In this document: positions 7,900 through 34,201 of the stretch, one piece after another
Position numbering within the stretch: the first letter of the stretch is position 1
Layout: each line of letters begins with the position of its first letter
Assembly (NCBI GenBank): GCA_001628005.1
Contig: LUQU01000004.1
Span: forward strand, 1 to 64,000
Source: SAR86 cluster bacterium REDSEA-S09_B4
GTDB lineage: Bacteria > Pseudomonadota > Gammaproteobacteria > Magnimaribacterales > Magnimaribacteraceae
Direction: 5' to 3'
Length of the DNA stretch: 64,000 nt
Made by a program: the position numbers and the translations under genes
Notes under the pieces: model-generated
The model's input: the letters and a program-made list of their open reading frames with translations, nothing else
Told to the model about the DNA's origin: nothing
The model's database searches: none

Positions 7900-9594
<1,695 letters not shown>

Positions 9595-9603
9595 TTACCT
9601 AAA

Positions 9604-9619
9604 ATCCTTCTTTAAGGAT
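9604..9619 (-). promoter_or_regulatory. Hairpin near the leuA ribosome-binding region
   Basis: On the minus strand ATCCTT and AAGGAT form a 6-base stem around AAAG, followed by TTTTAGG, about 22 bases before the leuA ATG. It could be a weak terminator or could sequester purines upstream of the start. It belongs to the leader described at 9654-9746. The stem is short and the T-tract is interrupted, so its function is uncertain. Confidence 0.4.
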
Positions 9620-9653
9620 GGTATCTTTCGTTTAATTCGAGATATTATTAGAA

Positions 9654-9746
9654 CTAGAGATATATAGAAGGGCCCGGCAAACTCTGCAATACAGAGACCG
9701 GGTAAGTAAGTCGTAGGCTTAAAATGTTCAATACATCTAAAAACAT
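9654..9746 (-). CDS. Putative leucine leader peptide upstream of leuA
   Basis: A 30-codon ORF (ATG at 9746, TAG at 9654-9656) lies between the leuA promoter and leuA. Eight of 30 residues are leucine (positions 3, 6, 9, 11, 13, 20, 23, 30), and three of them (9, 11, 13) come immediately before a GC-rich hairpin at 9673-9702. The last of these codons ends 5 bases before the stem. That geometry is what ribosome-stalling attenuation requires. There is almost no room for a ribosome-binding site: the -10 box ends 8 bases before the ATG, so the message probably begins at or next to the start codon. The function is inferred; the ORF and leucine count are read directly. Its composition differs from the E. 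coli leuL run of four leucines. Confidence 0.6.
   Translation of the reverse strand: MFLDVLNILSLRLTYPVSVLQSLPGPSIYL
9673..9702 (-). promoter_or_regulatory. Leader hairpin inside the leu leader ORF
   Basis: Minus-strand RNA forms CCCGG / CCGGG closing an inner CTCTG / CAGAG stem with loop TATTG, giving ten paired bases with small internal bulges. It lies within leader codons 15-25, so a translating ribosome would disrupt it and a ribosome stalled at Leu9-Leu13 would leave it free. It is unusually GC-rich for this genome. It lacks a T-tract, so it is more likely a pause or antiterminator element than the terminator itself. Confidence 0.55.
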
Positions 9747-9754
9747 GGAAACGC

Positions 9755-9782
9755 AGTATATATAGGCAATGGTAAGGGTCAA
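9755..9782 (-). promoter_or_regulatory. Sigma-70-type promoter for leu leader/leuA
   Basis: Minus-strand TTGACC (9782-9777) and TATACT (9760-9755) are separated by 16 bases, close to consensus at both boxes. The predicted start falls near 9748-9746, at the leader ATG. The divergent holD start at 9804 is only 22 bases beyond the -35 box. Confidence 0.65.
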
Positions 9783-28953: not shown

Positions 28954-29715
28954 CTAAAAGATTTCTTCAGATCTTTTTGTTAATACTTCATATCCTGACG
29001 AAGTAACAACAAGCGTATGTTCCCATTGAGCTGAGTTTCTTCCATCTTTCGTTTCAACAGTCCAGCCATCAGCTAGAGCTTTAGTATATTTTGTGCCTAG
29101 GTTAATCATTGGTTCTATGGTGAAGCACATACCTTCTCTTAACTCTAAGCCTGTTCCAGCTTGGCCATAGTGAAGTACTTGAGGGTCTTCATGATAAATC
29201 TCTCCAATTCCATGACCACAATAGTCTTCTACAACTGAATAGTGATTGTTTTCAGCATGAACTTGAATGGCATTACCAATGTCCCCCAAATAGGCACCTG
29301 GCTTTACTTGCTCTATGCCTTTATAAAGGCATTCTTGGGTGATATTAACCAATCTTTCATTGTGAGGTTGTGACTTGCCTACTAAAAACATCTTAGATGT
29401 ATCACCATGCCATCCATCCTTTTTTACCGTTACATCAATATTTAAAATATCTCCATCCTTTAATTTTCTTTGAAAATCAGGAATGCCATGGCAAACAACC
29501 TGATTTAGGCTACTACAAATTGTTTTTTCATACCCTTTATAGCCTACATTAGCTGGAATAGCATCTTGCTCATTGACTATGAAGTCATGACAGATTTTAT
29601 CTAACTCACCTGTTGATATACCTGGTTTGACTAATGGAGTTACCATTTCTAGAACTTCAGAAGCTAGCTTTCCAGCTAATCTCATTTTTTCTATCTGCTC
29701 AGTTGTTTTGATCAT
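28954..29715 (-). CDS. map: Methionine aminopeptidase, type I
   Basis: Removes the initiator methionine from nascent proteins. 253 residues. All five metal ligands are in register with E. coli at minus 3: Asp94, Asp105, His168, Glu201, Glu232, and CGHGIGEIYHEDP is the conserved active-site segment. The usual divergent partner rpsB is absent; carAB lies opposite instead, sharing a 162-base regulatory region. The upstream sequence has TATAAT on the minus strand (29767-29762) that could serve map, without a clear -35. Confidence 0.97.
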   Translation of the reverse strand: MIKTTEQIEKMRLAGKLASEVLEMVTPLVKPGISTGELDKICHDFIVNEQDAIPANVGYKGYEKTICSSLNQVVCHGIPDFQRKLKDGDILNIDVTVKKDGWHGDTSKMFLVGKSQPHNERLVNITQECLYKGIEQVKPGAYLGDIGNAIQVHAENNHYSVVEDYCGHGIGEIYHEDPQVLHYGQAGTGLELREGMCFTIEPMINLGTKYTKALADGWTVETKDGRNSAQWEHTLVVTSSGYEVLTKRSEEIF

Positions 29716-29740: not shown

Positions 29741-29769
29741 TAGACAGTGCTCCGCTTATTTATTATAGT
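29741..29769 (+). promoter_or_regulatory. Sigma-70-type promoter for carAB leader
   Basis: TAGACA (29741-29746) and TATAGT (29764-29769) with a 17-base spacer, each one base from consensus. It predicts transcription beginning at about 29776-29779, that is at the leader ORF start codon and more than 90 bases before carA. The same AT-rich stretch holds a minus-strand TATAAT, so map and carAB may use overlapping divergent promoters. Confidence 0.6.
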
Positions 29770-29773
29770 GCGG

Positions 29774-29797
29774 TTTTAATGCCTAAAAGCATTAAAA
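29774..29797. repeat. Perfect 9-base inverted repeat at the carAB transcription start
   Basis: TTTTAATGC, a 6-base CTAAAA loop, then GCATTAAAA. There is no T-tract on either strand after it, so it is not a terminator. As DNA it would be a symmetric operator spanning the predicted carAB start; as RNA it would be the first hairpin of the leader and would enclose the leader ATG (29779-29781). It does not match the ArgR box pattern that I know from E. coli. Confidence 0.55.
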
Positions 29798-29865
29798 TCA
29801 TACCTGCGAACTTCAGATATTTAACTGGTTCGCTTTTTTTTATCAACTTTTCCTTCAATTTTTAG
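29779..29865 (+). CDS. Putative carAB leader peptide
   Basis: A 28-codon ORF (ATG 29779, TAG 29863-29865) runs straight through the terminator at 29806-29841 and stops 12 bases before carA. Its second half is rich in phenylalanine (12, 20, 21, 24, 26, 28) because it reads the T-tract. A translating ribosome close behind RNA polymerase would prevent the terminator from forming, the logic of the E. coli pyrBI leader. There is no ribosome-binding site, and the ATG lies at or within 3 bases of the predicted transcript start, so translation would be leaderless. Function is inferred from geometry. Confidence 0.5.
   Translation: MPKSIKIIPANFRYLTGSLFFINFSFNF
29806..29841 (+). terminator. Intrinsic terminator (attenuator) upstream of carA
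   Basis: GCGAAC pairs with GTTCGC, with an inner CAG/CTG stem closing an ATATTTAA loop, directly followed by eight T residues. No plus-strand gene precedes it: map is on the other strand and ends its upstream region here. The terminator therefore can only act on the short transcript from the carAB promoter, making it an attenuator rather than a gene-end signal. Confidence 0.75.
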
Positions 29866-29877
29866 GCTCTAAATAAG

Positions 29878-30996
29878 ATGAGCTTTGATAAAGCCGTACT
29901 AGCATTAGCAGACGGCACTACCTTCTTTGGTAAGAGTATTGGTTTCTTAGGAGAAACAAATGGGGAGGTAGTTTTTAATACCGCCATGACTGGCTATCAA
30001 GAAATTCTTACTGATCCTTCTTATGCAAAACAAATTGTTACCTTAACTTACCCCCATATTGGTAACACCGGAGTGAATTCTGAAGATGTCGAATCAGATA
30101 GGGTCTGGGCTTCAGGTTTAGTTATCAAAGACCTTTCAGTTTTTGCTAGTAATTGGCGTAAAGAAACTGACCTTACAGAATACTTAATTGCGAAAGAGAC
30201 TGTAGCTATTTCAGATATAGATACTAGAAAGCTCACATCAAGAATTCGCAAAGAAGGTGCTCAATCAGCAGCAATTATCACAGGAAAAAATATTTCAGAA
30301 CAAAAAGCTATTTCTTTAGCTCAAAAGTTTTCAGGTCTAAAAGGATTAGACTTAGCTAAGAAAGTAACTACTAAGAAGCCTTATTCATGGGATCAAAGTG
30401 AATGGAGACAAGGCGAGTCTAGGAAAGCATTTAAAGTTGTCGCTTTAGATTTTGGAATAAAAAAGAATATTCTTAGGATTCTTTTTCAAAAAGGTTGTGA
30501 AGTTACTATTCTGCCTGCTAAGACAACTTACAAAGAGATAACAAAACTTAACCCAGATGGAGTTTTTCTTTCTAATGGTCCAGGAGATCCTGAACCTTGT
30601 GATTATGCCATACAGACTATTAAGAGATTAATAGAAAGAGAAATGCCTATATTCGGCATATGTCTAGGGCACCAGCTCTTATCTCTTGCCTTGGGAGGCA
30701 AAACAGAAAAGATGAAATTTGGTCATCACGGCGCCAATCACCCAGTTAAGAATTTAACAAACAATGAAGTTTTTATAACCAGTCAAAATCATGGTTTTAC
30801 TGTTAAAGAAAGTTCGTTGCCAAAGGAGGTATTGGTTACTCACAGATCGCTATTTGATGGAACAATTCAAGGGATCAAACACGAAGAATTGCCTTTTTTT
30901 AGTTTCCAAGGTCACCCAGAGGCTAGTCCAGGACCACATGACATAAAGTTACTTTTCGAACAATTTTTAGAAAATATGAGAAAGGCTAATGCCTAA
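29878..30996 (+). CDS. carA: Carbamoyl-phosphate synthase small subunit
   Basis: Glutaminase subunit supplying ammonia to CarB for carbamoyl phosphate, the shared precursor of pyrimidines and arginine. 372 residues. The class I amidotransferase nucleophile is Cys262 in FGICLGHQ, with the His/Glu pair in [11 protein letters not shown]. It overlaps carB by 8 bases. Upstream are a promoter, a leader ORF and a terminator at 29741-29865 that suggest transcription attenuation. Confidence 0.98.
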
Positions 30997-33900
30997 ACGA
31001 ACGGATATAAATTCAGTTTTAATTTTAGGAGCAGGACCCATTGTAATAGGCCAGGCTTGTGAATTTGATTATTCAGGAGCTCAGGCTTGTAAAGCTCTAA
31101 AAGAAGATGGATTTAGGGTAATTTTAGTCAATTCAAATCCAGCTACCATCATGACTGATCCCTCTTTAGCTGATGCTACCTATATAGAACCAATTCAGTG
31201 GCAAACAGTGGAAAAAATTATAGAAAAAGAAAAACCAGATGTAATTTTACCAACTATGGGTGGTCAGACGGGATTAAATACTGCCTTGGATTTAGATAGA
31301 GAAGGGGTTCTAAAAAAACATAAAGTTGAAATGATTGGAGCCACCAAAGATGCAATAGATAAAGCTGAAGACAGAGACCGATTTTCTGAAGCAATGAAGA
31401 AGATTGGTTTAAGAACTCCCAAGGCAGCTTTAGCACACAATTTAAAAGAAGCTAAAAAAATAGTAAAAGATATTGGGTTTCCCTGTGTCTTAAGGCCCAA
31501 CTTTACTATGGGAGGGGCAGGAGGTGGAGTTGCCTATAATCAAGATGAATTCGAAGAGATCTGTTCCAGAGGTTTTGATCTATCTCCAACCTCTGAGATT
31601 TATATAGATGAATATCTCGAAGGTTGGAAGGAATACGAAATGGAAGTGGTAAGGGATAAAAATGATAACTGCATCATAGTTTGCAGTATTGAAAACCTAG
31701 ATCCTATGGGTGTACATACTGGAGATTCCATAACAGTTGCACCTGCTCAAACCCTAACAGATAAAGAGTATCAGCTAATGAGAAATGCAGCTATGGACAT
31801 TCTTAGAGAAATTGGTGTGGAGACTGGCGGTTCTAATGTTCAATTTACTGTTAATCCTGAAGATGGAGAAATGCTGGTAATTGAAATGAACCCAAGAGTT
31901 TCTAGGTCTTCAGCTTTAGCCTCGAAAGCTACTGGATTTCCGATTGCAAAAGTAGCAGCTAAGTTAGCAGTAGGATACACACTGGATGAGCTTAGAAATG
32001 ATATTACTGGAGGTATCATTCCTTCATCCTTTGAACCATCTATAGATTATGTAGTTACGAAGATTCCCAGATTTAATTTCGAGAAGTTTCCACAAGCAGA
32101 ACCTATTTTGACAACGCAAATGAAATCAGTTGGTGAAGTCATGGCAATAGGTAGAACCTTTCAGGAGTCATTTCAAAAGGCTATAAGAGGATTAGAAATT
32201 GGAAAGGATGGGCTTAACGAAATATATGATTGTTCAAATCAAGACTTGGCTGATCTAAAGAAAGAACTTTCAACACCAAGCCCAGACAGGATTTGGTTCC
32301 TGGCTGATGCACTAAGAAATGGCATGACAGTTCAAGAAGTTTTTAATACAACAAAAATTGATCCTTGGTTTATTTCACAAATTGAGGATTTAATAATTGA
32401 GGAAGATACTTTAAAAAATTTGTCCTTAAACGCAATAGACAAAGATTATTTATTGGATGTAAAGAAAAAAGGGTTTTCAGATAGTAGATTGGCTTTTTTG
32501 TTAAAGACTCAAGAAAGAGAGGTCAGAGAAAAAAGGAAAGAGCTTAAGGTAATACCGGTATTTAAAAGAGTGGATACTTGCGCGGCTGAATTTGAATCAT
32601 CAACCGCCTACATGTACTCAACCTATGAAGAAGAATGTGAATCTAAACCTAGCAGTAAAAAGAAGGTGATAGTTTTGGGAGGAGGTCCAAACAGAATCGG
32701 TCAGGGGATAGAGTTTGATTATTGCTGTGTTCATGCAGCTCTAGCTATGAAAGAAGAAGGATACGAATCAATAATGGTAAATTGCAATCCAGAAACTGTT
32801 TCTACTGACTATGATGTTTCCGATAGATTATATTTTGAACCCATCACTATGGAAGATGTGCTTACTATTACTGAGTTGGAGAAACCACTTGGAGTTATAG
32901 TCCAATACGGAGGGCAAACTCCTTTAAAATTAGCTAAAGAACTAGAAAAGAATGGTGTGCCTATATGGGGAACATCTCCCGATTCAATAGACTTGGCTGA
33001 AGACAGAGGAAGATTTCAAAAGTTCGTTCACAAACTAAAACTAACTCAGCCCCCAAATGGGTTAGCCACTAATCAGGAAGAGGCTATGAAAGTTTCAACT
33101 GAAATAGGGTTTCCTTTGGTAGTTAGGCCTTCTTATGTTCTTGGAGGAAGAGCTATGGAAATAGTTTACAACCAAAAAGATTTAGAAAATTATTTAGTTG
33201 ATGCAGTAGAGGCAAGTGAAGAAAGCCCAGTTTTATTAGATAGTTTTTTAAATCAAGCAATTGAATTAGATATTGAAGCAGTTTGTGATGGCAAGGAAGT
33301 AGTTATTGGAGGTATTCTTCAACATATTGAACAAGCTGGTATCCATTCCGGGGACTCTGCTTGCTCTTTACCTCCTTATAACTTGGACAGTAAGTTAATT
33401 TCAGAAATTCATACCATGGTTAAATCTATAGCCTTGGAAATAAAGGCAGTTGGACTTATAAATGTCCAGTTAGCTCTTTGTGATGATATTCTTTATTTAC
33501 TTGAGGTAAATCCTAGGGCCTCTAGAACCATCCCTTTTGTCTCAAAGTGCATTGGGAATTCTTTAGCTAAAGTAGGTGCAAAATGCATGTCAGGAATTTC
33601 TTTAAAAAGACAAGGATTTACTAAAGAGATTATCCCTAAATATTTTTCTGTGAAAGAGGCAGTACTTCCATTTTCAAAATTTCAAGGGGTAGATCCGATA
33701 CTTGGTCCTGAAATGAAATCCACTGGAGAAGTTATGGGGATAGGCAAAAGTTTTGCTGAAGCCTATGCTAAAGCTCAAATAGGAGCGGGCGAAAATATAT
33801 CTTCTGAGGGATGTATTTTTCTCAGTGTGCGAAACTCTGATCAGGAATTTGTTGCAGAATTAGCTAAAGAGTTTCACGATCTAGGTTTCACTATAGTTGC

Positions 33901-34201
33901 CACTAAAGGGACAGCAACTTTCATTTCTGAAAGCGACCTTCCTGTAACAATTGTAAAGAAAGTTGCAGAAGGAAGACCTCATGTTGTAGATATGATGAAA
34001 AATGGCGAAATTCAAATAGTAGTTAACACCACCGAAGGAAGGCAATCAATTTTGGATTCTGCTTCCATAAGAAGAACAGCTTTAGAAGAGAAAATCTACT
34101 GCACTACAACTTTGGAAGGAGGAAGGGCAGTTTGTTCGGTTCTAAGAAATAAAGAAGATTGGGATGTAGATCGATTACAAGACCTTCATGCTAAACTGTA
34201 A
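30989..34201 (+). CDS. carB: Carbamoyl-phosphate synthase large subunit
   Basis: Synthetase subunit, 1070 residues, with two homologous ATP-grasp halves (about 1-400 and 550-930), an oligomerisation region between them and a C-terminal MGS-like allosteric domain (about 935-1070). Each half opens with a dinucleotide-like loop ([22 protein letters not shown] and [22 protein letters not shown]), and both carry the ATP-grasp [16 protein letters not shown] segments. The C-terminal domain binds UMP and ornithine in E. coli. It starts inside carA and is followed by greA after 20 bases. Confidence 0.98.

Follow-up and report, generated by a model that had tools for sequence, protein, structure and literature searches.

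Attenuation of carAB is already known from Pseudomonas. The pyrimidine response of P. aeruginosa requires a stem-loop in the carAB leader, for which a leader peptide has also been reported (PMC4997734). P. syringae makes a terminated leader RNA, named P32, that starts 118 nt before carA, and expression there is higher when the stem-loop is absent (PMC4997734). The leader examined here lies in a stretch of 64,000 nucleotides from SAR86 cluster bacterium REDSEA-S09_B4 (the window), and it resembles the Pseudomonas leader in having a single promoter and an intrinsic terminator between the start and carA. The gammaproteobacterial carA terminator, AGCGGGATG..CATCCCGCT, differs in sequence from that of SAR86, and about 40-70 nt separate its end from carA downstream. 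Upstream of carA outside SAR86, a terminator was found at 43 loci, again with a different sequence and with a frame that is not uniformly open. ArgR acts on Pseudomonas carAB, whereas a search for ArgR (PF01316) gave no match in the window genome, which is 88% complete. Likewise, a start-codon hairpin of the SAR86 type is not described for Pseudomonas carAB in the literature searched, and our search of open-access literature found no treatment of any SAR86 leader. A different sequence and a hairpin over the start codon are what distinguish the SAR86 leader.

The comparison also turned up an observation on Pseudomonas itself. Several of its loci (L040, L059, L062, L063, L066, L075, L079) have a GTG at -119 that opens a frame crossing the carA terminator and closing at a TGA, which overlaps the TTG start of carA; this GTG adjoins the P. 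syringae start at -118. A leaderless leader ORF with a GTG start may have gone unrecognised in P32, and the remaining Pseudomonas have either an ATG near -94 or no such frame upstream of carA.

Two other pyrimidine systems resemble the SAR86 leader in some of their parts. In E. coli, pyrBI is controlled by UTP-dependent pausing coupled to attenuation (PMC7818426), and its leader ORF, pyrL, stops 3 nt before pyrB. The SAR86 leader shares with pyrL an ORF that crosses an intrinsic terminator and ends beside the structural gene. However, the Shine-Dalgarno start and the U-rich pause tract of pyrL are both missing from the SAR86 leader, in which a 5' hairpin instead covers an AUG close to the 5' terminus. 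That start region matches the layout of pyrC and pyrD in E. coli and Salmonella, where it depends on the nucleotide with which the transcript begins whether a 5' hairpin keeps the ribosome from binding (PMC7818426); start-site switching in SAR86 is a putative step. As in pyrC and pyrD, the SAR86 hairpin takes in the additional bases of an earlier start and conceals the start codon, with a small effect in leaders of the pyrF type (described below). The pyrC and pyrD hairpins control translation of the gene itself, whereas the ORF blocked in SAR86 is a leader that would act on a terminator and a coupled gene.

Three more systems were compared. E. coli carAB P1 has a T run in its initially transcribed region and is under UTP control (PMC6245113); with two promoters, ArgR, PepA, PurR and other regulators but without an attenuator, the E. 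coli operon is unlike that of SAR86. The Polynucleobacter carA motif, a candidate RNA that immediately precedes carA (PMC8632094), differs in being one long imperfect hairpin, a proposed riboswitch for which a leader ORF is not described. Corynebacterium glutamicum ilvBNC has a leaderless leader peptide and a 5' hairpin that can block initiation and so lead to termination (PMC11857589), but this is an amino-acid attenuator read through its codons, in an unrelated operon and phylum. Against this background, we read the SAR86 leader as a translation-dependent attenuator of carAB (of pyrF-carAB in some genera) that works through a near-leaderless ORF, with pyrimidines as the most likely signal, and we give this reading a probability of roughly 0.6.

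The carAB leader in the window

The window genome belongs to SAR86 family f1. On its minus strand lie dapE (named from its sequence only), dapD, glnD and map, followed on the plus strand by carA, carB, greA, rlmE and ftsH. Table 1 gives the coordinates of the leader and its neighbours. An earlier note on this DNA had claimed a promoter, an ATG near the predicted start and a 28-codon ORF that contains a terminator before carA, with no plus-strand gene upstream. All of these parts were located: the ATG lies nine bases after the -10 hexamer, and the only upstream gene is map. The divergent orientation of map and a T run on the plus side only reject the idea that the terminator serves an upstream gene. 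The note had overlooked the 5' hairpin, whose 5' arm contains the leader ATG.

Table 1. Coordinates of the carAB leader elements and adjoining genes in the window
Feature	Position	Strand	Details and basis
map, divergent neighbour of carA	28954..29715	-	NCBIfam TIGR00500
Sigma70-type promoter TAGACA-17-TATAGT	29741..29769	+	-35 29741-29746, -10 29764-29769; conserved geometry
5'-terminal hairpin	29774..29797	+	perfect 9 bp, TTTTAATGC-CTAAAA-GCATTAAAA; folding, covariation
Transcription start zone, predicted	29775..29779	+	bases 6-10 past the -10 hexamer, YYY followed by the AA of AATG
Leader ORF	29779..29865	+	MPKSIKIIPANFRYLTGSLFFINFSFNF, 28 codons, in frame with carA; ATG 29779-29781, stop TAG 29863-29865
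Intrinsic terminator GCGAAC-TT-CAG/CTG-GTTCGC + eight T	29806..29841	+	stem GCGAAC/GTTCGC 29806-29811/29828-29833; inner CAG/CTG 29814-29816/29825-29827; T run 29834-29841; -9.5 kcal/mol; covarying stem
carA, carbamoyl-phosphate synthase small subunit	29878..30996	+	NCBIfam TIGR01368
carB, overlaps carA	30989..34201	+	NCBIfam NF003671

Promoter-like matches in the window are not above chance (4 against 9.3 expected), and the promoter call is credible because it is conserved, not because of the match count. The arrangement T(A/G)GAC(A/T/G), 17 bp, TA(T/A/G)AGT, nine bases and ATG recurs in 85/85 leaders from families f1, f2 and f3, a count in which the 17 pyrF loci had their spacing and TAATG fixed beforehand by the search pattern, whereas the pattern for the 68 carA loci was (C/T)TAATG preceded within a few bases by a -10-like hexamer and did not demand exact spacing. 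After the -10, positions 6-8 are pyrimidines and positions 9-12 are AATG in all 85. The pyrC/pyrD-like layout, with pyrimidines at the usual start distance and a purine 2-3 nt later, is likewise present in 85/85.

In the window this start region reads GGTTTTAATG, which invites comparison with E. coli carAB P1, where the transcript begins GUUU and slips (PMC6245113). UTP-sensitive reiterative transcription at the TTTT of SAR86 could be imagined on that model. The T run is TTTT in f1 and f2; in most of f3 it is interrupted by C (TTCTA, CATCTA, CTCCTA), and in E. coli slippage is lost when T is changed to C (PMC6245113). Slippage would also leave the ORF and the terminator unexplained, and we consider it very unlikely as the basis of control.

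The leader RNA (29776-29850) folds into two hairpins, and none of 200 dinucleotide shuffles folds as well (z -3.8). The 5' hairpin reaches into the start pyrimidines: at transcript position 7, the 47 rows have 24 UA, 18 CG and 5 UG pairs and none that is broken. If the hairpin is RNA, pairing that reaches position 7 and covaries means that the start pyrimidines must sometimes be in the transcript. The same inverted repeat might instead be a DNA operator for some repressor, or a hairpin that stabilises the mRNA, with terminator and ORF independent of it; the palindrome does span the predicted transcription start, and the data are comparative. But the distance between the arms varies across SAR86 leaders (5, 6 or about 19 nt), the arms change in complementary fashion and ArgR was not found in the window genome. 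Variable spacing and complementary changes speak against the operator, which we rejected on these grounds, and the whole alternative has little chance of being correct.

The terminator of the carA leader was not called by a simple terminator scan, for which a bulge of 2 nt in the stem is the probable reason. It is present in 61/61 leaders of f1 and f3 and in 1/24 of f2, and it lies about 27-33 nt after the leader ATG. Between them, nt 4-27 of the f1 and f3 leaders contain 19-25% U and 41-52% A. This composition bears on the pyrBI-type control that the earlier note had proposed, in which UTP-dependent pausing before the terminator would set the coupling of ribosome and polymerase. A leader ORF that crosses the terminator and stops beside the structural gene, as in pyrL, fits that model. 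In contrast, the U-rich tract of pyrL (GTTTTTCTTCCC) has no counterpart before the f1/f3 terminator, the SAR86 leader lacks a Shine-Dalgarno start, and the model leaves the conserved start-site pyrimidines and the hairpin unexplained. Pyrimidines remain the favoured signal, but pausing in a U-rich tract does not suit the A-rich stretch, and pyrBI-type control is improbable.

Conservation in SAR86 and capture of pyrF

Loci of carA were taken from 61 relatives and from additional genomes drawn from the order, mostly incomplete assemblies, and yielded 85 leaders in three of four families, between which carA identity is only about 50-60%. The relatives support the attenuator with a near-leaderless ORF through its terminator that had first been proposed: terminator and ORF persist in relatives, and the position of the stop beyond the terminator is conserved. 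Many of the 85 leaders come from close relatives, and the fairer count is of 32 diverse leaders (<80% identical), in which frame 0 is open in 30/32, the +1 frame in 1/32 and the +2 frame in 2/32. For single leaders, the probability of an open frame by chance is 0.05-0.44. Leader lengths range from 61 to 105 nt with differences that are not multiples of three, and in 74/85 the stop lies between -3 and +17 relative to the start of the downstream gene.

The exceptions in stop position are the window itself (-12), L084, L136 and eight f3 genomes of genus g13. The g13 frames close at codon 8 or 15, upstream of the terminator or within it. Since a ribosome protects about 10 nt downstream of its A site (PMC4824070), one halted at the early g13 stop would, on our analysis, still reach the 5' arm of the terminator stem. 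The 28-codon length is peculiar to the window genome; in the two closest species, the T run has nine T and the ORF has 32 codons and ends TAA-G-ATG at carA. Eight T at 29834-29841 instead of nine changes the ORF from 32 to 28 codons. This difference may be genuine or an error of assembly, or polymerase slippage may bridge it.

What the ORF encodes appears to matter little. Minimal changes at codon positions 1/2/3 number 30/27/31 in f1, 23/28/30 in f3 and 79/89/80 in f2, and 38/29/37 in the f1 leaders with pyrF. Near-equal change at the three positions in a frame that is nevertheless kept indicates that the act of translation is conserved and the peptide is free to vary. The operon feeds arginine synthesis as well, and a short ORF before a terminator would suit arginine (amino-acid) attenuation or a ribosome-arrest peptide. 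However, Arg makes up 2.8% of leader residues without enrichment of its codons, codon-position bias is absent and pyrF has been captured. Arginine content and the equality of codon positions leave both of these readings disfavoured and scarcely credible. The parallel once drawn with leuA also holds only in part: both genes have a leader ORF, but that of leuA is a Leu-codon leader, whereas the carA leader peptide is unconserved. The leader of leuA (7900-9582, minus strand) lies at 9583-9770, with TATACT, an ATG about 8 nt later, a near-leaderless, Leu-codon-rich ORF reading MFLDVLNILSLRLTYPVSVLQSLPGPSIYL to its stop, and a CCCGG..CCGGG hairpin without a following T run.

The families differ in which elements they retain. 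In f2, hairpin and ORF are kept without the terminator in 23/24 leaders and the frame is open in 24/24, which points, from sequence comparison, to translational coupling as a second output. In family f4 (L125-L132), the region 5' of carA is short and has no leader. In the f1 genera g3 and g6, carA mostly follows directly after pyrF to give a pyrF-carAB operon, and here the same promoter, hairpin, ORF and terminator stand between map and pyrF at 17/17 loci with enough sequence (L087, L088, L091, L092, L095-L107). The stop of this pyrF-type leader adjoins the pyrF start (-3..+16).

A covariance model, R1, was built from 32 leaders. Pairing holds in 89% of cells against 83% in shuffles, and the covariation score is 0.203 against 0.110 when shuffled and <=0.086 when slid. 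R1 detects 52/52 f1/f3 test loci at 56-86 bits (many of them training sequences), and each genome has one strong match, at carA or pyrF. Among 274 genomes of the class, R1 matched only two SAR86 genomes (f1/f3) and, weakly, one locus outside SAR86, an ordinary chance terminator at a choline transporter. Inspection by eye of pyrB and pyrE in five SAR86 genomes found no such leader. Rfam families, riboswitches included, gave no match to the leader at gathering score and only chance matches at a relaxed threshold, and a known Rfam element was rejected as its identity on that ground. Promoter geometry, hairpin, open frame, stop position, f1/f3 terminator and pyrF capture are established by this comparison.

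A possible route from pyrimidine supply to readthrough

From these elements we infer the start site, the loading of ribosomes, the blocking of termination by translation with coupling to the next gene, the ligand and a start-site switch. If the RNA starts within a few bases of the ATG, the ORF would be read as a nearly leaderless message. Early loading of a ribosome would cover the terminator hairpin and let the polymerase read on, and the ribosome, finishing at or beside the start of the downstream gene, would aid initiation on carA or pyrF. Should loading fail, the terminator would form and transcription would end near 29841. The gate on loading would be the hairpin of the first ~24 bases, in which the ATG is buried.

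What sets this gate is probably pyrimidine supply, perhaps through a pyrC-like choice of start site that determines hairpin strength. Predicted energies for the window hairpin depend on the 5' end: -6.5 kcal/mol for UUUAAUG, -3.3 for AAUG and -1.8 for AUG, with about -5.6 to -6.5 for the full hairpin from pyrimidine starts at positions 6-8. Ample UTP and CTP would favour these pyrimidine starts and the full hairpin. When pyrimidines are short, starts at A9 or A10 would put the AUG at the 5' terminus and make the hairpin much weaker (-3.3 to -1.8), with translation and readthrough as the outcome. The switch is proposed because YYY-AATG is invariant, pairing reaches position 7 and later starts weaken the hairpin. 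The gene pyrF serves pyrimidine synthesis only. Its capture in two genera, the failure to find ArgR in the window genome and the lack of Arg enrichment favour pyrimidine over arginine control.

As a rule, a terminator that lies less than 100 bp into a coding region escapes repression by ribosomes if nothing pauses the polymerase (PMC4824070). Because ribosomes rarely catch the polymerase in this interval, a pause may be needed too, and the hairpin could have a role in it. A variant of the attenuator makes this the main function: the 5' hairpin would be a pause signal, as in trp or his leaders, with the polymerase waiting about 10 nt past the hairpin for the ribosome, and readthrough would follow translation capacity or a pyrimidine-dependent release. 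Its attractions are a terminator about 27-33 nt past the ATG, where ribosomes normally fail to catch the polymerase (PMC4824070), and a linker between the 5' and terminator hairpins that is held at about 8-12 nt in all leaders. But a hairpin that hides the start codon would hinder the very ribosome being awaited, and f2 keeps its hairpin with no terminator to synchronise with. We regard the pause variant as unlikely.

The translation-dependent attenuator has its own difficulties. The early stops of g13, the window stop 12 nt short of carA and the lack of a leader in f4 all count against it. The start-site step has a further one in the pyrF-type hairpin, whose energy barely depends on the start (-4.6 to -3.2). 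Only tentatively do we suggest a composite pyrimidine switch of a kind not described before, in which start choice would set hairpin strength, hairpin strength would govern a sequence-neutral ORF, and the ORF would act on both terminator and coupled translation, with coupling as the one remaining output in f2.

Implications for SAR86

SAR86 bacteria are abundant in the ocean and have small genomes. Its carAB leader shows a possible means of controlling a central operon without a repressor, using promoter, ribosome and RNA only. We rate the interest of the finding as moderate because the principle of attenuation is established and the sensing step is one that we infer. Families with the terminator, without it (f2) and without the leader (f4), together with the capture of pyrF, make the contribution of each element testable. 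The leader is also a warning for annotation, as an ORF without a conserved peptide is liable to be missed or called a spurious gene. Judged from sequence conservation, the switch has been kept across much of the SAR86 order, and it probably lets the cell turn carAB on when pyrimidines are short.
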